Assembly (NCBI GenBank): GCA_913042205.1
Contig: CAJWIY010000002.1
Span: 17,685-81,684 of the forward strand
Source of the DNA: an uncultured Gammaproteobacteria bacterium
Lineage (GTDB): Bacteria; Pseudomonadota; Gammaproteobacteria; Pseudomonadales; Litorivicinaceae
DNA: 64,000 bases
Direction: 5' to 3'
Under the pieces are notes generated by a model that worked only from the letters and a program-made list of their open reading frames with translations, made no database searches and was not told where the DNA came from. The position numbers and the translations under genes are program-made. This document shows, piece by piece, positions 3,042-62,333 of the stretch (its first letter is position 1; each line of letters opens with the position of its first letter).

Positions 3042-3177
3042 ATTTGATTACATAAAAAACTTTGAATTTAACGTTACATTGGGTCTCAAAGTTGATGTGT
3101 ATACCAAATCACTCACCATCCAGACTTTGCGATGCTACAAGAGACAAGTCCTTTGCCTCAAAAAAGGTAACGCTACT

Positions 3178-3289: not shown

Positions 3290-3958
3290 TTGAGTCAAGA
3301 AAGGTCACAGGAGGGTATTCAAAAACTATCAGAGCATCATCCTCTTGTAATTGAGGGGATGGGTGGATACGACACCAGAGATCCTGTAATGATTGCCTCA
3401 ACAATTCACAAACAACTTAGAAAGCATTGGGAAATAACCCCACCACGAAAACCTCTGATTCTTGTGACGCAGGGCGATCCTCTCGAAGAGAGAGGTATTT
3501 CTGCAATCACACGCATAATGAGTGACCGTCTTAGTGTTCCTCGGATTCTTGTTTACCTCGATCCTTCAATTGCTTCATATCATGCACCAAACGCTGATCG
3601 ATATAGGGTCTCGCATGAGATTTCTTTCTCGGCTTTAAAGGATCGATTACATCGAGAAGACCAGCACATTGTGTCAGCGATTACGAAAGTCGTTGATGAG
3701 TATTTGCAGACTAAGACTGCGAAACGACTTGCAGAAGGAAAGGATAAACTTCCTGATTACTATCGGAATTTCGCATTGCTTCAGGAAATTAACAAAGTTG
3801 CTTGTAAGAAGATCTCCGGTGAGTTAACCGTTGCGCACACCAGTAGTGTGTTGAGCGAGTATTCAGTATCCAGTTTCTATCGTGTCGGATTAGATCTGGG
3901 ACTGATCGACTCATCAGAAGTCGTCCCATTTCCTATCGATACCAACATTTCTCGTTGA
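3290..3958 (+). CDS. Hypothetical protein (222 aa)
   Basis: Long open frame with plausible composition. Start could instead be the ATG at about 3359. No family recognised. Confidence 0.6.
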   Translation: MSQERSQEGIQKLSEHHPLVIEGMGGYDTRDPVMIASTIHKQLRKHWEITPPRKPLILVTQGDPLEERGISAITRIMSDRLSVPRILVYLDPSIASYHAPNADRYRVSHEISFSALKDRLHREDQHIVSAITKVVDEYLQTKTAKRLAEGKDKLPDYYRNFALLQEINKVACKKISGELTVAHTSSVLSEYSVSSFYRVGLDLGLIDSSEVVPFPIDTNISR

Positions 3959-45815: not shown

Positions 45816-46888
45816 GTCAAGTGATTAAAACGAATGCCGCAGATGTAAGATTTGAAGGCGTTTCAAAAATCTATGGGAAGGATGCGGTCGCGGTCGGTGA
45901 TATTGATCTCACGGTCGAGGCTGGGACACTGGTGACACTCCTCGGGCCATCAGGCTGCGGAAAGACGACAACCCTCAGGATGATTGCGGGTCTCGAGCTA
46001 CCAACCGCAGGAAAAATTTTCGTGGGCGGGGAGGACGTCACTGACTTGCCGGCGACCCAGAGAGATATCGCCATGGTTTTCCAGTCTTATGCGCTGTTCC
46101 CGCATATGTCGGTGCAAGAAAACATTGCTTACGGGCTGGTAAATTCGGGGATGGGTCGTGATGAGATCGCGGAGAGAACCTCATCCGGCATGGACCTGGT
46201 GGGCCTAAAAGGATTTGAGAAGAGGCTCCCATCCGAGCTTTCTGGGGGCCAGCAGCAACGTGTCGCTGTGGCGAGGGCTATCGTGCTCGAGCCACAGGTC
46301 TTGTTATTCGATGAGCCACTGTCGAATCTCGACGCGAAGCTACGTCGCCAGGTCCGAGAGGAGATTCGGGAACTGCAAACCGGTCTCGGTCTAACCGTGG
46401 TGTACGTGACGCATGACCAGGAGGAGGCTCTGGCCGTGTCAGACAAGATTGTGGTGATGGATAAGGCGAAGATTGCACAGATTGGAACACCGGTGGATTT
46501 GTACGACCGGCCCAATTCTGTGTTTGTTGCTGACTTTATTGGTGAGGCAAATATTTTAGATTGTGATGTTCTCTCGCTTGGTGAAAGTGAATCGTCGGTG
46601 CGGATCGATAATTACCAGTTTGCTGTTGGGAATGTCATACCCGAGGACAGAGAGGCTCGTCTGGCGGTGCGGCCGCGGAATATTGCGCTGTCTTCGGAGA
46701 GCAATCCCGACGCGCTCTCCGGAACTGTCAAGAAAGTGTCCTACGTGGGCAGTCACTATGAGTACACAATTGTGGGCACCTTCGGTGAGATATTTGCTAT
46801 CGAGGACGCCACGCTACCCCTCAAGTCAGAGGGTAGTGAGGTATCTATTACGTTCAAGGGGAGGGGCTCTTGCCTAGTGCCGTCCTGA
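45812..46888 (+). CDS. ABC transporter ATPase (AfuC/FbpC/PotA-like, C-terminal TOBE region)
   Basis: [75 protein letters not shown]. Confidence 0.93.
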   Translation: MSQVIKTNAADVRFEGVSKIYGKDAVAVGDIDLTVEAGTLVTLLGPSGCGKTTTLRMIAGLELPTAGKIFVGGEDVTDLPATQRDIAMVFQSYALFPHMSVQENIAYGLVNSGMGRDEIAERTSSGMDLVGLKGFEKRLPSELSGGQQQRVAVARAIVLEPQVLLFDEPLSNLDAKLRRQVREEIRELQTGLGLTVVYVTHDQEEALAVSDKIVVMDKAKIAQIGTPVDLYDRPNSVFVADFIGEANILDCDVLSLGESESSVRIDNYQFAVGNVIPEDREARLAVRPRNIALSSESNPDALSGTVKKVSYVGSHYEYTIVGTFGEIFAIEDATLPLKSEGSEVSITFKGRGSCLVPS

Positions 46889-47687
46889 CGAGATGATCAT
46901 CGCCGAAACAGTGGTCAGCCATTTTGAGCAGAGGCTCAAATACCCCAGGCCAGCCAACGACAACACGACCACCGTAGTCAATCATTTCCTGCGCATTTTG
47001 GTCCTCTACCAAACCGCCCGCCTCTTTAACAATTAACTGTCCCGCGAGGCAATCCCAGGCGTTCATATGGTGTTCAATATAGCCGCTGTATCTTTGATCT
47101 GCGACATGCGCCAGAGATAAAGCTCCTGATCCGTTTCGACTGAATACTCCGCCGAGTTTAAAGATCTCGTTAATCACTGCCACCACCGGTTTGGTTGTGG
47201 TCCGCCCTGAGTAGCCCAGGCTGACCGTGCTATCGTCTAGCCGGGACTCTTTTTTGGAACCGAGACGACGGTCGTTCAAGAATGCACCATGACCGAGCTC
47301 GGCCGAGAACAATTCGTTATGGTTAGGGTCATAGATAACACCGCCTACTATTTCTTGATCTCTAACGAGCGCGATGACGATACACCAAGCGGGTACCCCA
47401 GAGATGTAGTTCGCCGTTCCGTCAATCGGATCGAGCACCCACTGAAACTCTACTGGATCATTTGTACGTCCATATTCTTCACCGACGATTCCGTCGTCTG
47501 CAAAATGATCTTGTATTTTCGACCGCAGAAACCGTTCTGTCGCCTTGTCCACCTCGGAGACGAAGTCTTGGGCGCCCTTCTCCGTGATCACAAGATCTTT
47601 CCAATGCGCAAACTCTTTTAACGCACTCATTCCCGCTTCCTGAACGATGACCTTGGCAAATGTAAGGCGCGTTTTGACTTCACTCAT
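46854..47687 (-). CDS. Inositol monophosphatase family protein
   Basis: GIVGEEYGRTNDPVEFQWVLDPIDGTANYISGVPAWCIVIAL...NAWDCLAGQLIVKEAGG. Confidence 0.92.
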   Translation of the reverse strand: MSEVKTRLTFAKVIVQEAGMSALKEFAHWKDLVITEKGAQDFVSEVDKATERFLRSKIQDHFADDGIVGEEYGRTNDPVEFQWVLDPIDGTANYISGVPAWCIVIALVRDQEIVGGVIYDPNHNELFSAELGHGAFLNDRRLGSKKESRLDDSTVSLGYSGRTTTKPVVAVINEIFKLGGVFSRNGSGALSLAHVADQRYSGYIEHHMNAWDCLAGQLIVKEAGGLVEDQNAQEMIDYGGRVVVGWPGVFEPLLKMADHCFGDDHLVRTALGKSPSP

Positions 47688-47767
47688 GTTGATAACCTAG
47701 ACGATAGTTTAGTTCTGTGCATTCAAAGTACCATGCCTCTGCATGGGCCGCAGAGAAAACCACGATT

Positions 47768-48772
47768 CTAAGGTGTGTTGTAGGTACGTTTTTCTCGACG
47801 TTCAATATAGGCGGCGATTACTACCTCAGGCGCCTCTTTCACCCTCCATGCTTCAAGCAGCCAGCTGGTCTCGAGTTCACCAAGCCAGTCGTCACTAGGC
47901 GGGTCACGATCAAGATTACTCGGGAACGGGTAGGCATCAACCAGAGCACGAATTGCTCTCGCAACCAGGGCCTCGTCGGTTTGGTCTAATAAGTGTGGGT
48001 AGACATGTTTCACTAATCCGACAAAGTCAATGTGCTCCATAGGCTTTGCGAGTGCGGTGGAAACTTGCAGTAAATTGACCAGCCGTGGCGCAGAAGTGTT
48101 ATTTCCCCCGGCGGCGTGGAATATGCTCGGATTAAAGAATACCAAGTCACCTTTTTTGAATGGGATTTGACTACACTCCCGCTCAAATCGAGTCTGCTCC
48201 TCTGCCCGACGGTATGTCAGGTACCCATCGGGATCTTTTTGTGATCCAAGCAGAAGTTTAGTCGGCCCCATCTCGGTGGGTACGTCACAGTGGATGATCG
48301 CTCCCTGCAGCGTCATCTTTGTGGAGGCTTGTCGAATTAGGTCAGGCATCTTCCTGACTAGGGATTCTGGGTAAAAACCAAGGTGGTAATCTCGGTGCCC
48401 TGTCTGAGGCGATCCGCCGGGGACGACCACATTGACCTGTGCTGTGATTTGGTAAAGAGGTCCTAGCCAGGCTTCGCTAACAACATGTAGCCATTCATTA
48501 CCGTAGTAGTCCGCGAACAGCTGGGGCGCATCCTCAGCAAGCTTATTTAAGGAGTTCCAGAGTCGTTGATTTGAGCCAGCAGCAAAATGATCGGCTGCGT
48601 GTCCGCCTTCTCTCTGTATTCGTTTGTAGAAGTGGTCCGCAACCACATCCAGCAGGGAATTGTCTTGATACGCCCCTCGGACTATTAAGACACCGGGGCC
48701 GTCCTGGAGCTGTGTTTCGATTTCAGCATGGCTCAAGGAATCGGCGTGGCTGACAATTACCTGATCATCCAT
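47768..48772 (-). CDS. Phytanoyl-CoA dioxygenase (PhyH) family Fe(II)/2-oxoglutarate-dependent oxygenase
   Basis: QTGHRDYHLGFYPES (HxD), MTLQGAIIHCDVPTEMGPTKLLLGSQK, distal His in FFNPSIFHAAGGNNTSAPRLVNLLQ. Confidence 0.82.
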   Translation of the reverse strand: MDDQVIVSHADSLSHAEIETQLQDGPGVLIVRGAYQDNSLLDVVADHFYKRIQREGGHAADHFAAGSNQRLWNSLNKLAEDAPQLFADYYGNEWLHVVSEAWLGPLYQITAQVNVVVPGGSPQTGHRDYHLGFYPESLVRKMPDLIRQASTKMTLQGAIIHCDVPTEMGPTKLLLGSQKDPDGYLTYRRAEEQTRFERECSQIPFKKGDLVFFNPSIFHAAGGNNTSAPRLVNLLQVSTALAKPMEHIDFVGLVKHVYPHLLDQTDEALVARAIRALVDAYPFPSNLDRDPPSDDWLGELETSWLLEAWRVKEAPEVVIAAYIERREKRTYNTP

Positions 48773-49551
48773 TCATGCTCCGGATCATTTTTGAAGTGCC
48801 ATACCCGTTTGGGACCCGCCATGACGTTAAGATAATAATTGTCGTAACCGTGAGGGGCGCCGACCGGGTGATATCCCTCGGGTACTTTCACGCAATCACC
48901 GTCCTCCACGGCCATTGTTTCGTCGATTGACCGATCGTCGGTGTAGACACGTTGGAACGCGAAACCTTGTGGTGGATTGATACGATGATAGTAAGTCTCT
49001 TCAAGCGCCGACTCTTCAGGGATGTTGTCGATACAATGTTTGTGCGGTGGGTAGCTAGACCAGTTCCCCGCGGGTGTGAACACTTCGACCACCAGGAGCG
49101 AATTTGCTGGTTGTGTTTCCGGCAAGATGTCGTGGATGTATCGAGTGTTGGTGCCTTGACCGCGCGTGCTTTGGGCTTGATCCGATCGGCCAATTCGACG
49201 TGCAGGAAGTCCAGATCCTCCTGGGGCCGAGCATATGCCCAGCTCTAAATCACTTGTCGCGGTGATTGTTACTCTGGTTTTTTCTGGGACAAATAGGTGT
49301 TCGGTGAGCTCTTGTGCGAACAAATTTTGCCGTCCCCCGACCCCCTCAAATTGGATGTCGTTCGTGGAGGCATCGAAGGCCCCTGTAATAGGCACGAGAC
49401 AGTATTCTCTGCCTTCCGTCTGGAACTTGAAAATATCACCGGGCCTCAGCTTTACGAGCTTGAAACCCACGAAGCTCCACCCGGCGTTCTCGGGCGTAAT
49501 ATCGATGACTGTTCCCTGCTGGCCGTTTGGTTTGACGAGCAGGGAACTCAT
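48757..49551 (-). CDS. iolB: 5-deoxy-glucuronate isomerase (IolB)
   Basis: NSLLVVEVFTPAGNWSSYPPHKHCIDNIPEESALEETYYHRINPPQGFAFQRVYTDDRSIDETMAVEDGDCVKVPEGYHPVGAPHGYDNYYLNVMAG. Confidence 0.95.
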   Translation of the reverse strand: MSSLLVKPNGQQGTVIDITPENAGWSFVGFKLVKLRPGDIFKFQTEGREYCLVPITGAFDASTNDIQFEGVGGRQNLFAQELTEHLFVPEKTRVTITATSDLELGICSAPGGSGLPARRIGRSDQAQSTRGQGTNTRYIHDILPETQPANSLLVVEVFTPAGNWSSYPPHKHCIDNIPEESALEETYYHRINPPQGFAFQRVYTDDRSIDETMAVEDGDCVKVPEGYHPVGAPHGYDNYYLNVMAGPKRVWHFKNDPEHEWMIR

Positions 49552-50324
49552 ACGGTACCTCCGAGCGAAGATTCGAGTTCGGCCAGTTGCTGACCGCCAG
49601 CCATTAAATCTTGCAGCTCCTCTGGTGTGATTTCTCCTTTCTTTGCCGTGCCCATCGTTTTTCCGCGGTTTAGAACCGTAAATCGATCGCCGACTGCCAG
49701 CGCGTGTCTTACGTTATGTGTGATGAAGACCACCGCAATCCCGGCTTGTCTCACGCGATCAACGGTTGCCAACACGTTTGCGGTTTGCCTTACCCCGAGC
49801 GCAGAGGTCGGTTCATCAAGGATGAGGACTTTTGCTCCGAAGTATACGGCGCGTGCGATTGCTACAGTTTGTCGCTCTCCTCCTGATAACGTGCCGACTG
49901 CTTGATGGGGTCCGCGTAGATTGATGCCCATTTTTCGCATCTCTTCCATGGTGACGCGGTCAGCGAAATCATGATCGAAAAGGTTGATACCGAGTACGTT
50001 TTTGACAGGCTCATTACCCATAAAAAAGTTTCGGCTGACGCTCATCAGGGGGATCATTGCGAGGTCTTGATATACGGTCGCAATGCCGTGTCCCATGGCT
50101 TCCCGGGGGTCTCTGAAGGTTAGTGGCTCACCGCGCATGTAGAGTTGCCCAGATGTCGGTGGGTGGACCCCCGACATTGTCTTGATCAGGGTCGATTTAC
50201 CGGCTCCGTTATCACCCAAAAGGCAATGACACTCGCCTTCAGATACGCTGAAGTTGACGCCTCCAAGTGCGATCACGGTGCCGAAGTGTTTCTCAACGTT
50301 TTGCATTTCGAATAACGGAGCCAT
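49548..50324 (-). CDS. Sugar ABC transporter ATPase (single-domain, FrcA-like)
   Basis: LLGDNGAGKSTLIKTMSGVHPPTSG, LSGGERQTVAIARAVYFGAKVLILDEPTSALGVRQT. Confidence 0.93.
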   Translation of the reverse strand: MAPLFEMQNVEKHFGTVIALGGVNFSVSEGECHCLLGDNGAGKSTLIKTMSGVHPPTSGQLYMRGEPLTFRDPREAMGHGIATVYQDLAMIPLMSVSRNFFMGNEPVKNVLGINLFDHDFADRVTMEEMRKMGINLRGPHQAVGTLSGGERQTVAIARAVYFGAKVLILDEPTSALGVRQTANVLATVDRVRQAGIAVVFITHNVRHALAVGDRFTVLNRGKTMGTAKKGEITPEELQDLMAGGQQLAELESSLGGTV

Positions 50325-50326
50325 AT

Positions 50327-51436
50327 CTATTTTTCCCCCGTAATTATGCGTCGGATGTAGGTGTTTAGTATCACCGCCGCCAAGAGCAAGACACCGAGAA
50401 AGACCCGGAACAAGGAGCTTTCAACACCTGCAAAAAACAAGCCCTGCTGGACCACGCCAAATATGAGAGCGCCGAGCGCTGCGCCAATGACGCTGCCGTA
50501 CCCGCCTGTTAAGAGTGCGCCCCCGATTACTACTGCAATGATTGCCTCGAATTCTTTCAACAGCCCTCGATCAGCTCCGGCGGATCCGAACTCCATAACC
50601 TGGCACGTCGCAAAGACACACGCGCAGAACGCCGAGAACATGAACATTAAAATTTTTACACGGTTGACAGGTACGCCAACATATCGGGCCGCCTGGGCAT
50701 CTCCCCCGGATGCGAAGATCCAGTTACCGAATCGTGTGCGTGTTAAGACGAAGTGCCCGACGATGACCAGGCCGATGGCCCAGATGATCAGGGCTGGTAT
50801 TCCGTCGATTACTGGTTGCCCGGCCCGATTACCGCGTTCGAAGACGTCGATCAGGCCGAGGTCGGCTAGCCAGATAAAGACAGGTTCACCTACCTTTCCG
50901 CCAAAAACTGAGGCGAGCCAGTCCCCTTCTGCAGCGTCAGATACGCCACCGATAATTGTTTTTCGTTCGATTAATTGGGGAAAGAAAATTGTAAATCCTC
51001 GTAGGATAAATAAGAACGCGAGTGTCACAATGAAACTGGGTAGGCCGGTCTTGACGACAATATAACCATTCAGTGCGCCCAACGCCGTGCACATGACAAA
51101 GGTAACTAAAATTGCTGTCCAAACTGGCCAATCGAGGGTTACCGAAAATATTGCGATCATCATGCCCGCGAATCCGATCATTGAGCCGACAGAGAGATCG
51201 AATTCGCCGGCGATCATTAGCAGACAGGCTCCAACCGCTATGATCATAAATTGTGCACTGACGGTCGACCAATTCATTACACCTCGTGGACTAAACATAC
51301 CGCTGTCGTAGGCCAGAAATCCGAAAAATAAAAAGACCACGATGGTGCCAGCGATGCTGCCAAGCTCGGGGCGCACGAGCGCCTGTCTCAGAGGAGAGGT
51401 GGTCTTGATGCGTTCGTCTTGAGCTAACTCACTCAT
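50327..51436 (-). CDS. Sugar ABC transporter permease (FrcC/RbsC-like)
   Basis: AGEFDLSVGSMIGFAGMMIA, GLPSFIVTLAFLFILRG, ASGGDAQAARYVGVPVNRVKI. Confidence 0.93.
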   Translation of the reverse strand: MSELAQDERIKTTSPLRQALVRPELGSIAGTIVVFLFFGFLAYDSGMFSPRGVMNWSTVSAQFMIIAVGACLLMIAGEFDLSVGSMIGFAGMMIAIFSVTLDWPVWTAILVTFVMCTALGALNGYIVVKTGLPSFIVTLAFLFILRGFTIFFPQLIERKTIIGGVSDAAEGDWLASVFGGKVGEPVFIWLADLGLIDVFERGNRAGQPVIDGIPALIIWAIGLVIVGHFVLTRTRFGNWIFASGGDAQAARYVGVPVNRVKILMFMFSAFCACVFATCQVMEFGSAGADRGLLKEFEAIIAVVIGGALLTGGYGSVIGAALGALIFGVVQQGLFFAGVESSLFRVFLGVLLLAAVILNTYIRRIITGEK

Positions 51437-51454
51437 TGGAAAAACCTTAAATGC

Positions 51455-51479
51455 TGAGGCACCAACCTATGGTGCCTCA
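51455..51479 (-). terminator. Intercistronic hairpin between the sugar SBP and permease genes
   Basis: TGAGGCACC-AACCTAT-GGTGCCTCA, perfect 9-bp stem. Confidence 0.65.
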
Positions 51480-51502
51480 GGTGGTTCTAAACAGGGGACT
51501 GT

Positions 51503-52450
51503 TTAGCGATACTCGCCAGCGAATTTCTCGACGAGTGTTAGACCTGACTTAGTAACAAATCCCGGTCCCGAGTTGATGTTGTTTCCTGGCAAAACACCAT
51601 AGCGATGGTAGTTCGAGAGGACGACAACAGGCAGATAAGCCTGCAAGAACGGCTGCTGATCGATGCCCCATTGGATGACGTCGGCTTTGATACCTTTCAC
51701 GATCTCCGACCCAAGGTCGAATGTGCCGAAGTAAATATCGCCGGCCATACCGTTCTCTTTGAGTGCGAGCAGTGTTGGGTCTGCGGAGGTCGGGCCCAGC
51801 GTCAGTACGGCGTCAGTTTTTGGATTGGCATCAAGATAAGCGAGGACCTTATTTTTGATTTCGCCAGGATCTTGTCCAGAGTCGATCATTTGGTTACCCA
51901 GATCGATTCCCAAACCGTCGGCAAAGCCTTTACAGCGCTCGGTCGATGAGGGGCTGTTGATGTAATGATTCACGCACAGGAAGCTCTTGACCCCGTCGCC
52001 TTTGGCGCGCAGACCCGCAGCATATCCAGCGTCATACTCGGGTTGTCCGACGTACATTAGTGCACCAACTTCACGTGCCTGGTCAGGAGTTCCTGAGTTC
52101 ATAATAATTACATCCACACCTGACGCGACTGCGGCCTTGATTGGACCAGATAAAACATCATAGTCCGCGAGGGTGGTGATGATCCCGTTTGGGTTGGATG
52201 CCGCTGCTTGCTCAATGATCCGAGCCATGTCAGCCAAGTCCCCGGTCGGTGGGTTCCTGTACTCAACTTCCACATCCATTTGTTTTCCTGCGAGTGCGAT
52301 ACCGTTCTTTATGGTATTCCACCAGCTGTCTGAGTCAGGAGCATGAGACACTAAAACGTACCGCTCGCCAGCGGCGCTCGCCGACATTCCTGTTAATGAG
52401 GCAGCCGCAAGAGCTGAGGCTACCAGTAGGCTTTTAAACATCTTCTTCAT
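51503..52450 (-). CDS. Sugar ABC transporter substrate-binding protein (RbsB/FrcB-like)
   Basis: Signal peptide; YVLVSHAPDSDSWWNTIKNGIALAGKQMDVEVEYRNPPTGDLADMARIIEQAAASNPNGIITTL. Confidence 0.93.
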   Translation of the reverse strand: MKKMFKSLLVASALAAASLTGMSASAAGERYVLVSHAPDSDSWWNTIKNGIALAGKQMDVEVEYRNPPTGDLADMARIIEQAAASNPNGIITTLADYDVLSGPIKAAVASGVDVIIMNSGTPDQAREVGALMYVGQPEYDAGYAAGLRAKGDGVKSFLCVNHYINSPSSTERCKGFADGLGIDLGNQMIDSGQDPGEIKNKVLAYLDANPKTDAVLTLGPTSADPTLLALKENGMAGDIYFGTFDLGSEIVKGIKADVIQWGIDQQPFLQAYLPVVVLSNYHRYGVLPGNNINSGPGFVTKSGLTLVEKFAGEYR

Positions 52451-52532
52451 GGGTTGTCTCCGATTTTTATTAGGTTAGGACGTGCACACGTGTGACAATC
52501 CTTAGACAGCACCTTAAAGGCCAGAAAAAAAT

Positions 52533-52550
52533 TTTGCAACCGGTTGCAAA
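52533..52550. promoter_or_regulatory. LacI-family operator candidate, site 1 (SBP / lacI divergent region)
   Basis: TTTGCAACCGGTTGCAAA, perfect 18-bp palindrome with central CG; the same core recurs at 56764. Confidence 0.88.
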
Positions 52551-52593
52551 GATAAATTTTTTTCCTCATCGTAGAGGCGTTAGAGGAAAAAAA

Positions 52594-53613
52594 ATGGAAG
52601 AAAACCGCGGAAAACGCCCGACGCTGGGCGAGGTAGCCGCTCTGGCAGGAGTGTCACGAAGCGCCGTTTCCAGAACCTTCACCGAAGGCGCTTCGGTATC
52701 TACACTGACCCGGACAAAGGTAGAGCAGGCCGCGTCTCAGCTCGGCTATCGTCCTAATTTGCTCGCGCGTTCGTTGACCACAAGAAAAACGGGATTGGTC
52801 GGTCTCGTGGCCAACAACTTCCATAATCCGATCTTCCTTGAGGTTTTTGATTTATTCACGCGCGAGTTACAACGAAAGGGCCTGAGGCCCCTAATCGTAA
52901 ACCTAACGGACGAGACCGACGCCCTGCGAAGTGTCCAGTTGCTTTTGGAGTACCAGGTCGATGCTGTCGTCGTCGCTAGTTCCACGTTACCTGTGGGCTT
53001 TGCTGATAGCTTCGCCGAGGCCGGGATCCCTGTTGTGCACGCTTTCGGGAGGCCAGGCCACCGTGAAGACATCAATGTGGTCGGGATTGACAATATCGAA
53101 GCCGGACGGCTAGCTGCACGACGGTTAATCGCCTGTGGTTATGATCGGGTGGGCTTCCTTGGAGGGCCTGAGAAAGCGACCTCAACACGCGACCGATTAG
53201 AGGGTTTCCTCGACGTCTTGAGTGATTATCCAAAAATTCAGACGAGAATTAATTTTGCTGGTGATTATACGTTTGAGTCGGGGTTTGATGAGATGGCATC
53301 AATGATTTTACGGGACCTCGGTCAGGGATATTTTTGTGCGGACGATGTGATTTCGATTGGTGCAATGTCTGCACTACGTCGAGCAGGTTATAGGATACCT
53401 GAGCAGGTGGGCATCATCGGCTTTAATGATATGGAGATGGCCGGCTGGGATAATGTGCGGCTCACGACTATCCGGCAGCCTCTTGGTGCGATCATTAAAG
53501 AGTCGGTTAATTGTCTCGGACAAATTTTATCGTCTGAAGATTCAAAACCGACCCAACACAAACTATTCCCGTGTGAGGTTATTGATCGCGACACACTTCC
53601 CGTTACTAGTTGA
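52594..53613 (+). CDS. LacI family transcriptional regulator
   Basis: PTLGEVAALAGVSRSAVSRTFTEGASVSTLTRTKVEQAASQLGYRPNLLARSLTT and periplasmic-binding-like domain. Start placed at the ATG at 52594. Confidence 0.95.
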   Translation: MEENRGKRPTLGEVAALAGVSRSAVSRTFTEGASVSTLTRTKVEQAASQLGYRPNLLARSLTTRKTGLVGLVANNFHNPIFLEVFDLFTRELQRKGLRPLIVNLTDETDALRSVQLLLEYQVDAVVVASSTLPVGFADSFAEAGIPVVHAFGRPGHREDINVVGIDNIEAGRLAARRLIACGYDRVGFLGGPEKATSTRDRLEGFLDVLSDYPKIQTRINFAGDYTFESGFDEMASMILRDLGQGYFCADDVISIGAMSALRRAGYRIPEQVGIIGFNDMEMAGWDNVRLTTIRQPLGAIIKESVNCLGQILSSEDSKPTQHKLFPCEVIDRDTLPVTS

Positions 53614-54745
53614 GATCCACCCACTGTCCGTGTTGTTTACCCGATTCTGCAACCGCGTAAATCGCTTTGATCGATTCTACGCCATCGCTCGCCAGGGGGA
53701 GCAACACAGAATGTGCTCTCGTATCTTCATTTTTTGTCTGACTGATCACTCCGTGGAGTTCTGAGTAGATATTTGCAAAGGCTAATGGCATGCCTTCTGC
53801 GTGACCAATAGTGACCCGGCTTGATTTGTCAGCCTCGGGTGACAGGTTTGCTTCGCCCCGTTCGATTATAGTGGTCCTGCCCCCTACAGGCGTGTAATAC
53901 AACTGGTTCGGTTGTTCCTGAGCCCAGCGAAGGCCACCCGTTTCGCCGAACACTTGGATGGCTAAGCCATGCTGCCGACCAACCGCGCAGGCACTTGTCC
54001 AAAGGCGACCTATGACGCCACCTGTCATCCTGAAATTCACCATGGCGTCATCCTCTAGCTGTCGACCTGAGACGAGGCTCACAGTATCTGCTGAGACACA
54101 CTGCACGCGCTGGCCTGTTATGAATGTGGCTAGGTGTAGGGCGTGGATCCCACAGTCTGCAAATTGTGCTGAAACTCCGATTTGTGTCGGATCATATCGC
54201 CACCGAATTCGGGGGTTGTCAGCATCCGTCGCATCGGCGTGATGACCATGGGCAAACTCAGAAAAAACCATTCGGACCCTGCCGATATCCCCGCGACTGA
54301 CCATGGCCTTCATGTGGCGTATGAGGCTGTAACCAGAGTAGCCGTAGTTGACCGCGCATATGGATCCTTTGGCCTCAACGAGGCGGACAAGTTCCGTCGC
54401 CTCCTCGATAGTCATTGTGAGAGGCTTTTCGCACAACACATGAAAGCCTTCGGACAGGAAAGCTTTCGTGATTTCATAATGAGAGTTATTTGGTGTAGCA
54501 ACAGTGACGAGATCAATCCGGTCCTCGCGCTTAATTTCGCCGTCAAGCATTTCTTGCCAGGACCCGTAGCTTCTATCAGGTGCCAGACCTAATTCAATGC
54601 CGAATTGTTTACCTTCTTCCGGGCGGTGATCAAGCGCTCCTGCCACAAAATTAAAGTAACCGTCGAGTCGGGCTCCAAGTCGATGGGCTGGGCCAATCTG
54701 ACTTCCCTCTCCGCCCCCGACTAGTCCCCAGTTCAAGCGTACCAT
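53606..54745 (-). CDS. Gfo/Idh/MocA family oxidoreductase
   Basis: RLNWGLVGGGEGSQIGPAHRLGARLDGYFNFVAGA...ATPNNSHYEITKAFLSEGFHVLCEKPLTMTIEEA. Confidence 0.93.
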   Translation of the reverse strand: MVRLNWGLVGGGEGSQIGPAHRLGARLDGYFNFVAGALDHRPEEGKQFGIELGLAPDRSYGSWQEMLDGEIKREDRIDLVTVATPNNSHYEITKAFLSEGFHVLCEKPLTMTIEEATELVRLVEAKGSICAVNYGYSGYSLIRHMKAMVSRGDIGRVRMVFSEFAHGHHADATDADNPRIRWRYDPTQIGVSAQFADCGIHALHLATFITGQRVQCVSADTVSLVSGRQLEDDAMVNFRMTGGVIGRLWTSACAVGRQHGLAIQVFGETGGLRWAQEQPNQLYYTPVGGRTTIIERGEANLSPEADKSSRVTIGHAEGMPLAFANIYSELHGVISQTKNEDTRAHSVLLPLASDGVESIKAIYAVAESGKQHGQWVDLN

Positions 54746-54758
54746 TTGGGTTATCTCC

Positions 54759-55649
54759 CTAAAAGCCTATTGCGGAAAGGAACTGTCGATTAGAGATCGC
54801 GTCGGTGACGGGTGAAACGTCGAGGGTCGGGTCACAGTCTTGCTCTACAGTTACCCAGCCATCGTAGCCGCGATCGGTGAGCAACTGTTTTGCTGCGAGA
54901 AAGTCTACGGCGCCTTTGCCGAGGTTACAGAAAATCCCTTGGCCACAAGCCTCGTAAAAGCCGGTTCGATTTTGGACGACTGCTGATTGCACCGCCGGGT
55001 CAATATCTTTGACATGTACATATGAAACCCGGTCAAAGTTTTGGTCAATAAATGCCACCGGATCAAATCCAGCGTATGTCTGGTGTCCGGTATCTACGCA
55101 GATCTTTAGATAGTGTTCATCGATCTCTTCTAACAGTGCATCGAGCTCGTCTTTGAAATCCATGTATCCGCCCGCGTGAGAGTGGATGCTGACAGTGAGA
55201 CCGTATTCTTCGGTTCCCATTTTTGCGACATCTCGTATTCGACCAGCGAATGCCTTCCAGTCGGCCTTAGCCATCGTAATCGTTTCGCTTGGTCTTCCCG
55301 CGAAGGGCGCCCTTGCTTCAGAAATTGAATCGATCAGAACCATCTGTTGCGCGCTATGAGCAACTAGCGCCTGTGCGGTCCTTCTTGCTTGGCTCATGAC
55401 GGTCTTTGCCACACTCGAATCGTGGAATGGCTGAAATACAACACCACCGATAAGCTCCAACGAGTTTTCCGCTAAAGCGTCACCAAGTTGGCCCGGATCT
55501 TCGGGCATGAAACCCACGGGTCCCAGTTCGATGCCATCGTATCCCGCTTGATGGCACTCCTCGAGCACTGTGGTCCAGGTTGGGTTTCGGGGGTCATCTA
55601 CCCACTCGACACCCCATGAGCAGGGCGCGTTACCTATCTTTATTGCCAT
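54759..55649 (-). CDS. iolE: IolE-like TIM-barrel inosose dehydratase / sugar isomerase
   Basis: IKIGNAPCSWGVEWVDDPRNPTWTTVLEECHQAGYDGIELGPVGFMPEDP; location in the iol cluster. Confidence 0.85.
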   Translation of the reverse strand: MAIKIGNAPCSWGVEWVDDPRNPTWTTVLEECHQAGYDGIELGPVGFMPEDPGQLGDALAENSLELIGGVVFQPFHDSSVAKTVMSQARRTAQALVAHSAQQMVLIDSISEARAPFAGRPSETITMAKADWKAFAGRIRDVAKMGTEEYGLTVSIHSHAGGYMDFKDELDALLEEIDEHYLKICVDTGHQTYAGFDPVAFIDQNFDRVSYVHVKDIDPAVQSAVVQNRTGFYEACGQGIFCNLGKGAVDFLAAKQLLTDRGYDGWVTVEQDCDPTLDVSPVTDAISNRQFLSAIGF

Positions 55650-55658
55650 AACGATTCC

Positions 55659-56753
55659 TTACACAGTTGTCCAAGATTGGGTTTGGTGTGATCGACGGAT
55701 CGCCTCACAAACTTTCATCACAGCGAGTCCATCTGAAAAAGAGGGCCACGCCGGCTGAATACCCAGAATTGATTTATAAAAAGCGACCTGCTCAATGATG
55801 ATCTGGTCTTGGTAGCCCGTACCGTGGCCAGGCCCCTCGCAAAACATTGCATAACTCCCGTGTCCCGGGCCTGCCAGGATTCGCTGGAATCCAAAATCTT
55901 TTCCAGCTCTGTAGAGGTATAGGCTATTTTGATCCTCTTGATCAAATTGTATCGCCCCTTTCGTGCCGTGAATCTCATAGCAGAGCCCCATCTTTTTACC
56001 GTGAGCAACACGCGAGGCCACGATGAAACCGTTGGCGCCATTGGCAAATTTACACATGCATTGAGCGTGGTCATCGTTTGCCTGAGGGAGGAGTTTTTCT
56101 TGGCGTACGTTTGGGTGCTTTCTCAGATCAGCAACGAGCTCCGTGATTGGACCAGCAAAGGTAAGCGCGCAATGAATTGGATGCGGCATCAAATCCCCGA
56201 GGGTTCCATTAGAATCTCCAGTCTGCCTCCACTCATTTCCCGCTGCATTGACCAAAAAGTCTTCGTGATGTTCTCCGCGATACCAGATGACCTCACCAAC
56301 ATCTCCCGCGGAGAGAACCTCCCTCGCTAGAGCGGTTGCGGGGGTTTGTATGTAGTTGTAGCCCACCATATTTGGAACATGTGCACCGATCTCGGAAATT
56401 TTTTTTGCCTCAGCGAGATTTCGCCCCATTGGTTTTTCGCACAGGATTGCCTTTCCGGATGCTGCGGCTAGTTCCACGAACCGAAGGTGAGTGTGCTGTG
56501 GAGAGGCTATGATGATCGCGTCGATATTATTGTCCTGGAGCAGCGTCTCGGCAGATTTGAAGGCATGCCTGAAGCCAAACTTAGCTTGGTAGTTCTGGGC
56601 CGATTCAAGGCATGATGCTGCAACCCCTTCGAGGCGGATGTCCACGCCCAGTTCAGCATTCGCGGACGCGGCTCTTGCGGCAACCGCGTGAGCTTTTCCC
56701 ATGTAGCCGCCGCCGATGATACCGACATTGATCGCTTTGTAATTATTATTCAT
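55659..56753 (-). CDS. Gfo/Idh/MocA family oxidoreductase
   Basis: INVGIIGGGYMGKAHAVAARAASANA...IIASPQHTHLRFVELAAASGKAILCEKPMGRNLAEA. Start placed at the ATG at 56753. Confidence 0.93.
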   Translation of the reverse strand: MNNNYKAINVGIIGGGYMGKAHAVAARAASANAELGVDIRLEGVAASCLESAQNYQAKFGFRHAFKSAETLLQDNNIDAIIIASPQHTHLRFVELAAASGKAILCEKPMGRNLAEAKKISEIGAHVPNMVGYNYIQTPATALAREVLSAGDVGEVIWYRGEHHEDFLVNAAGNEWRQTGDSNGTLGDLMPHPIHCALTFAGPITELVADLRKHPNVRQEKLLPQANDDHAQCMCKFANGANGFIVASRVAHGKKMGLCYEIHGTKGAIQFDQEDQNSLYLYRAGKDFGFQRILAGPGHGSYAMFCEGPGHGTGYQDQIIIEQVAFYKSILGIQPAWPSFSDGLAVMKVCEAIRRSHQTQSWTTV

Positions 56754-56763
56754 GTCACACTCT

Positions 56764-56785
56764 ACTTTGCAACCGGTTGCAAAGT
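56764..56785. promoter_or_regulatory. LacI-family operator candidate, site 2 (oxidoreductase / iolD divergent region)
   Basis: ACTTTGCAACCGGTTGCAAAGT, perfect 22-bp palindrome containing the same 18-bp core as site 1. Confidence 0.9.
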
Positions 56786-56827
56786 TTGTATGCTTCGGAG
56801 CTATAAAGCAACTCAAAAAGAAGAGCC

Positions 56828-58690
56828 ATGTCGGAATTCATTAAGCTTACCGCTGCCCAAGCAATCGTCAAATATCTTGAAAACCAGTGGATAGAGATCA
56901 ATGGGTCGCGGGTGCGCCTGTGTGGTGGTGGGTTTGGGATTTTCGGACACGGCAACGTGACTTGTCTCGGTGAGGCGTTATACGAAGCGCGGGATTCTTT
57001 GCCCCTTTATCGTGGGCAGCATGAACAAGGCATGGGGTTCGCTGCCGCCGCATACTCTAAATACCACCTACGGAAGCGGTTTATGTTTTGCACCGCCTCA
57101 GCGGGACCGGGGACGGCGAACCTAGTGACGTCGGCAGCCCTCGCGATGGCCAACCGGTTACCAATTTTACTTCTTTGTGGCGATAATTTTGTTACACGAC
57201 TTCCTGACCCGGTGCTCCAGCAGGTCGAAAATTTTGGTGATCCAACCTTTGGTGTAACCGACGCATTTAAGCCTGTTGTACGCTACTGGGACCGGATCAC
57301 GCACCCTGCCCAAGTAATTCAGTCTTTGCCGCAAGCTATACAAACGCTGCTCGATCCGGCCGACTGTGGTCCAGCGTTTATCGGGCTTCCGCAGGATGTA
57401 CAGGGATGGGCATACGAGTTTCCGCTACAGTTTTTTAGAGAGCGAACCCACGTCGTGCGGGAGGTTATAGCTGATCCCCGGGAGATCTCGAGCGCCGCAG
57501 ACGTGATATTGGCAGCAAGGAGGCCTCTGATAATCGCAGGCGGAGGGGTCCAGTACGGTGACGCCGTCGATGAACTCAGGCAATTCGCAGAAACCCATCA
57601 AATCCCGGTGGCCGAAACGATCGCAGGCCGTGCGAATTTAATTTGGGATCACCCACTTAATGCTGGACCGATTGGGGTAACAGGTTCTAATAGCGCGAAT
57701 GCTATGGCGGTAGATGCGGACGTTGTGATTTGTGTGGGCACCCGATTACAGGATTTTACGACTGGGTCCTGGACATGTTTTTCAGACAAGGCGCAACTGG
57801 TTTCCGTGAATCCCGCGCGGTTTGATGCACATAAGCATATGGCCACAGCGGTCGTTGGTGGTGCCCAATCGAGCTTGCCGGCCATCAGCCAACTGATGGG
57901 TAATTTCTCGACGGCGTCAGATTGGTTGGAGAAGCTCAACCTTGAGCAGAGCCAGTGGAGCTTGGTCCGTGACCGCAATGTTGACGTGACGATTGGACCA
58001 AACCGCTACTCTCAAGCTATCGGGGTTGTGAATCAGATGTGTCGTGCGTCTGATCGGGTGGTGGCCGCCGCCGGTGGATTGCCGGCTGAGGTTACAGCGA
58101 ACTGGAGGACCCTCGGTATTGGAACTGTCGATGTAGAGTTTGGTTTCAGTTGCATGGGGTATGAGATTTCTGGGGGTTACGGGGCCCGAATTGCTCAGCT
58201 TGATGACGATCCTGGATCAGACACAATTGTTTTTGTTGGTGATGGATCTTACTTGTTGCTGAACGGCGACCTGTATTCGGCTGTGATTACGGACAAAAAG
58301 CTAATCGTGATTCTTTTAAATAACGGTGGGTTTGCAGTGATTGATAAATTGCAAACCGGGAAGGGTAACGCGAGCTACAACAACCTTTTTGTGGATACAC
58401 CAACAGCGACACGAATGGCCCCGGTCGATTTTGTATCGCACGCTAGAAGTCTGGGGGCCGACGCGGAGAAAGTCGCTGATGCCCAGGCGTTCCAGTCAGC
58501 TTTTGCGAGGGCTCAACAGTCGGCAAACAGTTATGTGATAGTGATGGATGTTGACCCATATGACGGATGGACCACCGAGGGGCACGCGTGGTGGGAGGTA
58601 GGTACCCCGTCTGTGTCAAAGCGTCGGTCGGTCCGTGATGGCCACGCAGAGACTGAATCCGGACGGCAGCAACAGCGTCGGGGCGTGTAG
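56828..58690 (+). CDS. iolD: 3D-(3,5/4)-trihydroxycyclohexane-1,2-dione hydrolase (ThDP-dependent)
   Basis: LTAAQAIVKYLENQWIEINGSRVRLCGGGFGIFGHGNVTCLGEALYE...LPLYRGQHEQGMGFAAAAYSK; ThDP motif GDGSYLLLNGDLYSAV. Confidence 0.95.
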   Translation: MSEFIKLTAAQAIVKYLENQWIEINGSRVRLCGGGFGIFGHGNVTCLGEALYEARDSLPLYRGQHEQGMGFAAAAYSKYHLRKRFMFCTASAGPGTANLVTSAALAMANRLPILLLCGDNFVTRLPDPVLQQVENFGDPTFGVTDAFKPVVRYWDRITHPAQVIQSLPQAIQTLLDPADCGPAFIGLPQDVQGWAYEFPLQFFRERTHVVREVIADPREISSAADVILAARRPLIIAGGGVQYGDAVDELRQFAETHQIPVAETIAGRANLIWDHPLNAGPIGVTGSNSANAMAVDADVVICVGTRLQDFTTGSWTCFSDKAQLVSVNPARFDAHKHMATAVVGGAQSSLPAISQLMGNFSTASDWLEKLNLEQSQWSLVRDRNVDVTIGPNRYSQAIGVVNQMCRASDRVVAAAGGLPAEVTANWRTLGIGTVDVEFGFSCMGYEISGGYGARIAQLDDDPGSDTIVFVGDGSYLLLNGDLYSAVITDKKLIVILLNNGGFAVIDKLQTGKGNASYNNLFVDTPTATRMAPVDFVSHARSLGADAEKVADAQAFQSAFARAQQSANSYVIVMDVDPYDGWTTEGHAWWEVGTPSVSKRRSVRDGHAETESGRQQQRRGV

Positions 58691-59682
58691 TGGTTGATCT
58701 TGGGCTAGACTCCTCTAAACCATTTTTGGTGATTGGTAGGGCGGGGATGGACCTATACCCTACCCCGATAAACACGAAGACAGCCGACGCCACCGAGTTT
58801 GTGTCAGCGCTCGGTGGTTCGAGTGCAAATATTGCGGTGGCACTCTGTCGGTTGGGCCAGAGAGCATCTCTGGTGACATGTATTTCGGACGACGCGATTG
58901 GTTCTTTTGTTGAGAACCAATTGAAGCACTATGGCGTTGATTCCCGTTTTCTGAGGAAAGTTAATGGCGATTGTCGTGCAAGCCTCGCGATCGTTGAGTC
59001 GCGAGTGGAAGACCACCAGAGCGTTATCTACAGGAACAACGCTGCAGATTTTCAGATGGACCAAGGTGATTTCGTATCGATTAAGATGTCTGAATTTTCT
59101 GCCATGATTATTACTGGTACTTGCCTGACGTCTAACCCTTCCCGTCAGGCGACGTTAGGAGCCTTGGCGCTTGCAAAACAGTCAGGGTTATTGACGATCA
59201 TGGACCTAGACTATCGTCCCTACTCTTGGGAGACGGAGAGTCAAGCCAGCGAGGTCTATAACGAAGCGGTTGAGTTAGTTGATGTCGTAGTCGGTAACGA
59301 TGAAGAGTTTGGACACATGGCGGGCGGCCTTAATTTCGGTGAGGGGTTCGCTAGGTCTCTAGCATCGCTAGGTAAACTTGCAATCTACAAGATGGGTGGG
59401 CGTGGCAGTCAGGCGTTCCTAGGCGACGAAATCATTTCGACAGATGTCTTCCCAGTAACACCGATCAAGCCAACAGGAGCGGGCGATGCTTTTTTGGGTG
59501 CCGTTTTGGCAGGTCTCTCGAGCGGCGAGGAATTGGCAAGATCATTAGTCTACGGTAGCGCCAGTGCCGCGCTCGTGGTGACTCGTGTTGGATGCGCCCC
59601 AGCAATGCCGACCTTGAGAGAACTAAACCTGTTCGTCGAGGAGCATGAGAAATCTGTTAAACAAACTATCGGGAGAATGTGA
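58690..59682 (+). CDS. iolC: PfkB-family 5-dehydro-2-deoxygluconokinase
   Basis: FLVIGRAGMDLYPTPINTKTADATEFVSALGGSSANIAVALCRLGQRASLV...KPTGAGDAFLGAVLAGL. Confidence 0.92.
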   Translation: MVDLGLDSSKPFLVIGRAGMDLYPTPINTKTADATEFVSALGGSSANIAVALCRLGQRASLVTCISDDAIGSFVENQLKHYGVDSRFLRKVNGDCRASLAIVESRVEDHQSVIYRNNAADFQMDQGDFVSIKMSEFSAMIITGTCLTSNPSRQATLGALALAKQSGLLTIMDLDYRPYSWETESQASEVYNEAVELVDVVVGNDEEFGHMAGGLNFGEGFARSLASLGKLAIYKMGGRGSQAFLGDEIISTDVFPVTPIKPTGAGDAFLGAVLAGLSSGEELARSLVYGSASAALVVTRVGCAPAMPTLRELNLFVEEHEKSVKQTIGRM

Positions 59683-60521
59683 TGCATCTTGCGCCCTTTG
59701 ATAACAAGAACCAACCGATCGTGAACGTGGACAATGAACGCGTCCCACTCAATTATTTCAATATCGTAAAGCTGAGCCTTGGCGAGGAATACTCTTATCA
59801 GCTCGTAGATTTTGAGTCATGCGTCGTGCCTGCAACCGGGCGGGTATCGGTGGCCGTTGACGGAACTCAGATCGCAGAAGTTGGACTACGTACAGAAGAT
59901 GTTTGGGATGGCGAGCCAGAGGGTATCTATGTCCCGACAGGCATGACATGCAAGATCCGGTGTCTGTCAAAAACTGCCGAGGTGTTCGTGGCCGGCGCAA
60001 AATACAACGAGACCCTCACTCCGTTCGCTGTCCATGCGGATGATATTGACATGGTCCAGTATGGTTCCGATGACACTAAAACACACCGCAAGATCAAGCA
60101 CATTTTGGGTCAGAAGCAACATGGTCAGGTAGGCCGGCTCTTGGTTTCCGAACTTTTTACCGTTGGCGCGGGAGGTTGGTCCGGTTTTCCCAGCCACAAG
60201 CATTCCGAAGACCGTGACGGTGAGACTCGGCATGACGAGACGTATAACTTTCGGTTTAAGCCGGCTAATGGAGGGGCGCTTCAGTTGCTTCAGCGATCAG
60301 ACTCCGAGCCAGGAGAGGCCTTCCATGTCGTAGACGGATCGACCTTTCTCATAGACGACGGTTATCATCCGTGTTGTGTTTTTCCCGGATGCGAGATGTA
60401 CTATTTTACGATTTTAGGCGGCGCAACCACGCGTGGCTTGACCCCATATTTTCAGCCAGCTTATGCGGACCAGTTGGAGACTATTCCCGGAATGAAGGCG
60501 ATGTGGAATAAATTTAAGTGA
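59679..60521 (+). CDS. Second, divergent IolB/KduI-type isomerase
   Basis: VSELFTVGAGGWSGFPSHKHSEDRDGETRHDETYNFRF...VDGSTFLIDDGYHPCCVFPGCEMYYFTILGG. HKH...E metal motif retained; diverged from the 48757-49551 IolB. Confidence 0.87.
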   Translation: MMHLAPFDNKNQPIVNVDNERVPLNYFNIVKLSLGEEYSYQLVDFESCVVPATGRVSVAVDGTQIAEVGLRTEDVWDGEPEGIYVPTGMTCKIRCLSKTAEVFVAGAKYNETLTPFAVHADDIDMVQYGSDDTKTHRKIKHILGQKQHGQVGRLLVSELFTVGAGGWSGFPSHKHSEDRDGETRHDETYNFRFKPANGGALQLLQRSDSEPGEAFHVVDGSTFLIDDGYHPCCVFPGCEMYYFTILGGATTRGLTPYFQPAYADQLETIPGMKAMWNKFK

Positions 60522-61345
60522 TAGCGAGTCTCCACGAGGTCTTGTTAGCGGCGAAACACTCGAATCGAGCCGTAGCTGGTTTAGTGTGTTTGGGTTGGGA
60601 GGATATGCGGGCCTACGTCCGCGCCGCTGAGATAGAAAATTTACCAGTGATACTACAAGCGGGCCCCAGTTGTCGCCGCCATACTCCCCTCACCGTACTG
60701 GGTCCAATGATGCGGCATCTGGCTGAGCAGGCATCGGTACCGGTTGTGGTGCATTTAGATCACGGCGAAAGCATGGAGGTATGCCGACAGGCGATTGAAG
60801 CTGGTTTTTCGAGCGTGATGTATGACGGTTCTCGTTTATGTTTGGCCGAGAATATTGAAACCACTCATTCGGTGGTAAATCTTGCGCATCAATATGGCAT
60901 CTCGGTAGAGGGAGAGATTGGGTTCGTTGGCTACGCGGCCGGAGAAATGTCGGCAATGACTGACCCGGTTGAGGCAGCTACCTTTGCAACAGAAACACGG
61001 ATCGACGCGATGGCCGTGTCCGTGGGGAATGTTCATCTACAAGTTGATACAGAAACCACACTGGACGAGCAGGTAATTAATCGTATTCAGGAATTAACGG
61101 ACACTCCACTGGTAATTCATGGCGGCAGTGGAGTTTCTAGAACACAACGCGCACGGTTAGCAGCTACCTCTAATATTTGTAAATACAACATCGGCACTGA
61201 GTTACGAACATTTTTTGGTTCAGAATTACGGGAGGTTTTGGTAAACGCGCCGGAGCTCTTTGATCGGATAAAAATATTGGAACAGGTCGAGTCCCGGATG
61301 GTTGAGGCGGCACGATCGGTTTTACGGAGCTTGTCAAATGATTGA
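60518..61345 (+). CDS. Class II ketose-bisphosphate aldolase (IolJ/GatY/FbaA-like)
   Basis: VPVVVHLDHGESMEVCRQAIEAGFSSVMYDGSRL...EGEIGFVGYAAGEM...PLVIHGGSGVS...KYNIGTELR. GTG start. Confidence 0.92.
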   Translation: MIASLHEVLLAAKHSNRAVAGLVCLGWEDMRAYVRAAEIENLPVILQAGPSCRRHTPLTVLGPMMRHLAEQASVPVVVHLDHGESMEVCRQAIEAGFSSVMYDGSRLCLAENIETTHSVVNLAHQYGISVEGEIGFVGYAAGEMSAMTDPVEAATFATETRIDAMAVSVGNVHLQVDTETTLDEQVINRIQELTDTPLVIHGGSGVSRTQRARLAATSNICKYNIGTELRTFFGSELREVLVNAPELFDRIKILEQVESRMVEAARSVLRSLSND

Positions 61346-62333
61346 TCTGGCACTTCTTGGGGCAGGCCGTATTGGCAAGGTCCATGCAGAGGCGATTTCC
61401 ACGATAGGCGATGTGCGACTTAAGTACGTGTTTGATCCTGTCGAAGAAGCCGCCTGTTCGGTGATCGAACAGTGCGGCGCGGTTGCTGCTTCGTTGGAGC
61501 ATATACTCGATGATCATGACATCCGAGGGGTGCTGATTTGCACCCCATCAGATCAGCACGCGGAGCAAATCAAGCTATCAGTTTTGGCTGGCAAGGCGGT
61601 ATTTTGCGAGAAGCCCATTTCTACTGATTTGGAGACGACGAGGCATACGCTTGAAGTTGTTGAGCGAAACGAAGGTATGCTCATGTTGGGATTTCAAAGA
61701 CGCTTTGATAAGCATTTTTCTGCCTTAAAACGCAAGATCGTCGACCAGACCTACGGTCTAGTGGAGCAGATACTCATCATCAGCCGTGATCCTTCACCGC
61801 CCCCGTATTCATACATGAAAGCCTCTGGTGGTCTGTTTAAAGATATGACTATTCATGATTTTGATATGGCACGTTGGTTGGTCGATGAACCAATTGCGAC
61901 GGTTTATGCGACGGGCCAAGCTCTTGTAGATCCAACGACCCGGATAGAAGGCGATGACATCGATACGGCATCTGTCTTGATGACCACGGTATCAGGCAAG
62001 CAAATCATAATCCTCAACAGCCGAAGAGCGTCTGTAGGTTACGATCAAAGAATCGAGGCGCACTGCGCGAAAGCGACTCTACAGGTGAACTCAGTTCGTG
62101 AGGATAGTGTTCTAGTTCTTGACCAGACAGGAATTTCGGAAAGTCCGCTGGAGCACTTTTTCATGACCCGCTACAAAGACGCTTATCGTAGGGAGATAGC
62201 ACATTTCGTTGATTGTTTGATCACAGGGTCTGCGCCTCTTGTAACGGGCACAGACGGGCTTGAGGCACTGGTATTAGCAGAGGCTGCTGGGGAGAGTTTA
62301 CGATCCGGAAGGCAAGTGTCGTGTCAAATCTGA
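61338..62333 (+). CDS. iolG: Inositol 2-dehydrogenase-type Gfo/Idh/MocA oxidoreductase
   Basis: MIDLALLGAGRIGKVHAEAISTIGDVRLKYVFDP...CEKPISTDLETTR...LMLGFQRRFDKHFSALKRKI...GGLFKDMTIHDFDMARWL. Start placed at the ATG at 61338. Confidence 0.9.
   Translation: MIDLALLGAGRIGKVHAEAISTIGDVRLKYVFDPVEEAACSVIEQCGAVAASLEHILDDHDIRGVLICTPSDQHAEQIKLSVLAGKAVFCEKPISTDLETTRHTLEVVERNEGMLMLGFQRRFDKHFSALKRKIVDQTYGLVEQILIISRDPSPPPYSYMKASGGLFKDMTIHDFDMARWLVDEPIATVYATGQALVDPTTRIEGDDIDTASVLMTTVSGKQIIILNSRRASVGYDQRIEAHCAKATLQVNSVREDSVLVLDQTGISESPLEHFFMTRYKDAYRREIAHFVDCLITGSAPLVTGTDGLEALVLAEAAGESLRSGRQVSCQI

Follow-up and report, generated by a model that had tools for sequence, protein, structure and literature searches.

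How are the uptake and breakdown of inositol controlled in a marine Litoricola genome whose inositol genes stand in divergent arms, with a LacI-family gene among them? The question arises from a window of 64 kb, the whole stretch of DNA analysed here, which is part of contig 2 of a genome of 2.02 Mb (98% complete). Two copies of one palindrome lie in its inositol locus, and an earlier note had assigned them to the neighbouring LacI protein from their position. This assignment now has strong comparative support, from the co-occurrence of site and regulator, the placement of the sites, the sites found at unlinked inositol genes and the distinct palindromes of the paralogous regulators. It is very probable, judging from these comparisons, that the palindromes are the operators of the product of the intervening lacI gene, a LacI-type IolR that would repress the transporter and iol arms.

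Results

Two identical palindromes in the divergent gaps

The 18-bp palindrome TTTGCAACCGGTTGCAAA has exact + strand copies at 52533-52550 and 56766-56783, the second embedded in a perfect 22-bp palindrome, ACTTTGCAACCGGTTGCAAAGT, at 56764-56785. The earlier note had described two identical palindromes about 4.2 kb apart, the longer one included, and its positions, surrounding sequence and exact matches were all confirmed. No other perfect palindrome in the window is as long as these two, the next being one 16-mer. In 100 dinucleotide shuffles of the window, matches with up to 3 mismatches averaged 0.05 per shuffle, and no shuffle had two.

Candidate operator A (52533-52550, annotated without strand) lies in the divergent gap between the gene of a substrate-binding protein (SBP) and lacI, 82 bp from the SBP start codon and 43 bp from the lacI ATG. 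Candidate operator B (56764-56785, also without strand) lies in the gap between Ox1 and iolD, its TTTGCAACCGGTTGCAAA core being 12 bp from the Ox1 ATG and 44 bp from the iolD ATG; all four distances are direct readings. Even palindromes among LacI-family operators are described as mostly having a central CG (PMC4052901), and the two sites, at 18 and 22 bp and with the centre CCGG, have this form within the 16-22 bp range.

Outside about 19 common bases the two copies have unlike flanks, and a recent segmental duplication is therefore not their source. A scan of the 2.02-Mb, 98% complete genome at up to 2 mismatches returned these two sites and no third; the absence of another copy, first noted from the window, holds genome-wide, and the many unrelated copies that would have spoken against an operator were not found. 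A 3-mismatch match at C4:44475 was rejected as a third site, as it lies within a coding region and is non-palindromic. A consensus scan for sigma-70 promoters at the operator gaps gave none that was convincing; the sole minus-strand match near operator B was discarded, its -10 falling inside the Ox1 start.

Genes flanking the sites

The arm that leaves operator A on the minus strand begins with the SBP of an ABC transporter (51503-52450), followed by a sugar transporter permease (50327-51436) and ATPase (49548-50324), then by IolB (5-deoxy-glucuronate isomerase, 48757-49551), a dioxygenase-like protein that is PhyH-like by inspection and has no NCBIfam match (47768-48772), and an inositol monophosphatase-family protein (46854-47687) as its possible last gene. 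This phosphatase is retained in locus L004 and missing after the PhyH-like gene in L118. The SBP is rhizopine-SBP-like: its nearest family is that of the rhizopine-catabolism SBPs, yet it scores far under the cut-off of that family (NF052284, 268 bits against 420). On the other side of operator A is lacI (52594-53613, + strand).

From operator B, the left arm (minus strand) starts with Ox1 (55659-56753), continues with an IolE-like TIM-barrel dehydratase (54759-55649; TIGR04379, 173 bits, below the cut-off of 290) and ends with Ox2 (53606-54745), Ox1 and Ox2 both being Gfo/Idh/MocA oxidoreductases. The right arm (plus strand) starts with IolD (56828-58690; TIGR04377 above cut-off) and runs through IolC (58690-59682; TIGR04382 above cut-off), a second IolB-like protein (59679-60521), an IolJ-like class II aldolase (60518-61345; profile match below cut-off) and the inositol 2-dehydrogenase IolG (61302-62333; TIGR04380 above cut-off). 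We infer the operon limits of the arms. From the genes that flank the sites it follows that both control points and the four arms share one site per gap; the regulon over four arms that the earlier note had drawn stands when lacI is counted as one of them.

An IolB-like protein is found in each of two arms, that of 48757-49551 scoring above the TIGR04378 cut-off and that of 59679-60521 below it (137 bits against 205). The two may serve different substrates.

The LacI-family protein

The product of lacI (339 aa) carries the LacI helix-turn-helix PF00356 (54.5 bits against a cut-off of 27), and its residues 5-335, sensor domain included, align with the solved chains of LacI, PurR, RbsR and CcpA, with E values to 1e-40. 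Its recognition-helix region reads GVSRSAVSR and its hinge RPNLLARSL. Among orthologs the former is near-invariant as GVS(R/T)(S/A)AVSR, although the identity between them and the Litoricola protein is only about 60%. Among named relatives the nearest are gammaproteobacterial, from Litoricola and its kin. A site precedes the regulator's own gene here, at 43 bp from the ATG, and likewise in 36 related SBP/lacI loci; autoregulation is given for 72% of the LacI regulators studied (PMC4052901).

Conservation of the site and of its placement

In an alignment of Litoricola sequences the 18 bp are invariant at operators A and B, and the neighbouring intergenic DNA is changed and shifted. Of the genomes of the Litoricola family, the five that have the close LacI ortholog carry the exact site, as does one partial genome, whose contig begins inside the locus; the 19 others lack it. 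Matches with 1-2 mismatches in Litoricola genomes devoid of the ortholog (G008, G019, G020) lie beside or in unrelated housekeeping genes and were set aside.

Further afield, relatives vary in the outermost base of either side, and the conserved core is the inner 16 bp, TTGCAACCGGTTGCAA. With up to 1 mismatch allowed in this core, at least one site was found in 75 of 76 related loci, nearly all alphaproteobacterial and with a regulator about 60% identical, for a total of 135 sites. Nearly all of these stand in the SBP/lacI gap (36), between Ox1 and iolD (56) or between Ox1 and iolC (14), and also at other positions upstream of lacI, or before a different ABC transporter followed by lacI. Sites placed before both inositol catabolic and transport genes, and conserved in orthologous loci, are the pattern of a LacI-type IolR regulon. 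Whole genomes agree: 24 alphaproteobacterial ones hold the core 2-3 times each.

Seven loci (L009, L017, L020, L022, L033, L059 and L077) have a distantly related ABC transporter before lacI, with the operator retained ahead of it. As the operator is found ahead of different transporters, the site has been kept despite transporter replacement.

Co-occurrence of site and regulator

In a set of 249 genomes of the Rhodobacteraceae family, the exact core and a LacI ortholog (E up to 1e-70) coincide in 69; another 168 have neither, 11 have only the ortholog and 1 has only the core. The Fisher test gives p = 1.8e-48, a value that overstates the independent evidence, the genomes being mutually related. 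Exact matches only being counted, 11 of the 80 ortholog-bearing genomes lack the core. The sole genome with the core and no detected ortholog has its site at iolD/Ox1.

The site also follows the inositol genes when the regulator gene is elsewhere. In L160, L146, L147 and L168 lacI is about 1 Mb off or on another contig and the site is still at inositol genes. Away from lacI, most copies of the core stand before inositol genes: at Ox1 with lacI about 1 Mb away in L160, before an ABC transporter in L146 and L168, before iolG plus an SBP gene in L149 and before a second iolD/iolE pair in L151. In L143 a PhyH-like gene (2027-3172), whose product is a 47% relative of the 47768-48772 protein, has its own operator copy about 45 bp upstream, with lacI unlinked. 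The PhyH-like dioxygenase 47768-48772 is hence predicted to be an inositol-regulon enzyme.

The Rhodobacteraceae genome G266 has an exact core (L144:3330-3345) about 85 bp before a pair of CoA-transferase subunit genes, named by inspection; this possible outlier may be an additional target or may have arisen by chance. The unlinked iolA/mmsA target that the earlier note had suggested did not materialise: mmsA (C5:26572-28005) has no site at up to 4 mismatches within 6 kb around it.

The other LacI proteins of the genome

The genome holds three LacI-type DNA-binding domains in all. The two other LacI genes also adjoin palindromes, TGAGGTACGTACCTCA and TTGAGACCGGTCTCAA, which differ from the present one and from each other and each recur once in slightly imperfect form. 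For TGAGGTACGTACCTCA, a candidate operator at L112:1613-1659 (G000 C13), the second copy has one changed pair. For TTGAGACCGGTCTCAA, a candidate operator at L113:1986-2001 and 3290-3305 (G000 C17), the second copy also has one changed pair and precedes a TctC-like gene.

Discussion

The LacI dimer would bind each site through the core TTGCAACCGGTTGCAA, with the half-site TTGCAACC. At site A it would repress the ABC-transporter arm and lacI itself, and at site B Ox1-iolE-Ox2 together with iolD-iolC-iolB-iolJ-iolG. An inositol or an early pathway intermediate would bind the C-terminal periplasmic-binding-protein-like domain and release the repressor, and uptake and breakdown would then be induced together. 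We infer the binding, the sign of regulation and the effector of the 52594-53613 protein from the LacI family. A counterpoint to this scheme is the short distance between operator B and the Ox1 start codon, only 12 bp, the usual operator distance being given as 30-140 bp (PMC4052901). DNA looping between A and B was considered and found no support; their spacing of about 4.2 kb corresponds to lacI plus three genes, and other species show spacings of about 3.4-10 kb.

Could the sites be operators at which the same protein acts as an inositol- or substrate-dependent activator, or as a dual regulator? Two LacI-family proteins tied to inositol or its derivatives, FixV of Mesorhizobium loti and IpsA of Corynebacterium, do act as activators, and their existence makes repression the predicted sign only. 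However, at three of the four start codons the site is 12-44 bp away, where a bound protein would hinder initiation sooner than promote it, and LacI-family members are described as mostly repressors. Moreover, plasmids of S. meliloti, R. etli and R. leguminosarum gave no match at E 1e-60, and no close FixV relative came up in this comparison, to which FixV itself was external. We consider activation improbable. It is very unlikely that the sites are bound by one of the genome's other LacI-family proteins instead of the neighbour: two such genes do exist, and the palindrome of one, TTGAGACCGGTCTCAA, has the same centre ACCGGT, but each adjoins its own different palindrome, and across genomes the site tracks the orthologs of the 52594-53613 protein.

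Two further explanations would deprive the palindromes of their primary role. Control of the locus by an RpiR-type IolR acting on GGAA-N6-TTCC, as in Caulobacter and Sinorhizobium, with the palindromes secondary, might be expected of a locus that looks alphaproteobacterial in origin, given that the experimentally defined alphaproteobacterial inositol regulon is of this type (PMC2597717). Yet this motif, which would mark such a regulon, has zero occurrences in the 64-kb window, and we hold such control to be extremely unlikely. As for a repeat element, a recombination site or an RNA hairpin of no regulatory role, perfect inverted repeats can form hairpins and two identical copies do lie within one locus. 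But the genome holds just two copies, with unrelated flanks, dozens of species have one copy per divergent promoter region, and a scan found no terminator-like site; the chance that the palindromes are of this kind is close to negligible. Repression by the neighbouring LacI remains the reading that we retain.

Where does this regulator come from? A quick tree unites the four LacI proteins of Litoricola in a single clade (100, starred), which sits on a long branch inside an 11-row set (95, starred) whose other members are alphaproteobacterial, and beyond Litoricola the nearest LacI relatives are nearly all alphaproteobacterial. Orthologs were detected in 5 of 321 sampled gammaproteobacterial genomes, the own genome included, and the sample's three further members of the same order yielded none. 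This suggests that the locus (46854-62333) was acquired from Alphaproteobacteria, regulator and operators together; as the tree took in the regulator alone and its branch is long, transfer is a suggestion and no proof. A broader and more tentative reading, possible rather than probable, is that a regulon widespread among Alphaproteobacteria, with this regulator as its marker, serves an inositol derivative and not plain myo-inositol, and that regulator and both operators moved into Litoricola as a working unit, the operator staying letter-perfect with the protein about 40% diverged. The derivative is proposed because of the rhizopine-SBP-like transporter, the two extra Gfo/Idh/MocA oxidoreductases, the two IolB-like proteins and the PhyH-like dioxygenase.

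A positional guess thus gives way to the well-supported prediction of a regulon whose operator is defined to 16 bp, useful for annotating inositol genes in marine Alphaproteobacteria and Litoricola, the PhyH-like dioxygenase included. The principle stays as it was, local repression by a LacI protein being standard for a sugar-type pathway, and the novelty is modest since LacI-type IolR regulons are known in general (Ravcheev 2014, PMC4052901).

In that work, the RegPrecise compendium is described as holding 7 groups of LacI-type 'IolR' regulons for inositol (Ravcheev et al. 2014, PMC4052901), which resemble the present one in having a LacI-family regulator, inositol targets, an even palindrome with a central CG and an autoregulated local regulon. 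The likeness is to this class as a whole, the main text giving neither IolR motif sequence nor lineages. The literature on Litoricola and inositol yielded nothing relevant, and no description of a Litoricola locus was found.

The IolR of Caulobacter crescentus belongs to the RpiR family. As proposed here, it acts through a palindrome on iol genes and on an inositol ABC transporter (Boutte et al. 2008, PMC2597717), but it differs in regulator class, in its motif GGAA-N6-TTCC and in that iolR is not inositol-regulated (PMC2597717). FixV of M. loti is, like the present protein, of the LacI/GalR family and is thought to sense an inositol derivative, and its homologs adjoin the mocDEF rhizopine genes; in contrast, it activates nifA2, and the passages on it name no operator (PMC3538637). 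No close relative of the window LacI was found on rhizobial moc plasmids, and direct orthology with FixV, itself outside that plasmid search, gains no support from it. IpsA of Corynebacterium glutamicum is also LacI-type, and in vitro myo-inositol releases it from a palindromic site; unlike the predicted repressor of breakdown, it activates inositol synthesis (ino1) (PMC3899939).

The locus on the megaplasmid of Ruegeria sp. TM1040 (NC_008043, TM1040_RS02125-RS02180) differs in belonging to an alphaproteobacterium, in a LacI that is 56% identical and in having no IolB-PhyH-phosphatase after the ATPase in that record. It nevertheless shows the same order, ATPase-permease-SBP/lacI/Ox2-TIM barrel-Ox1/iolD-iolC-iolB-aldolase-iolG, and carries the 16-bp core in both divergent gaps, as here.
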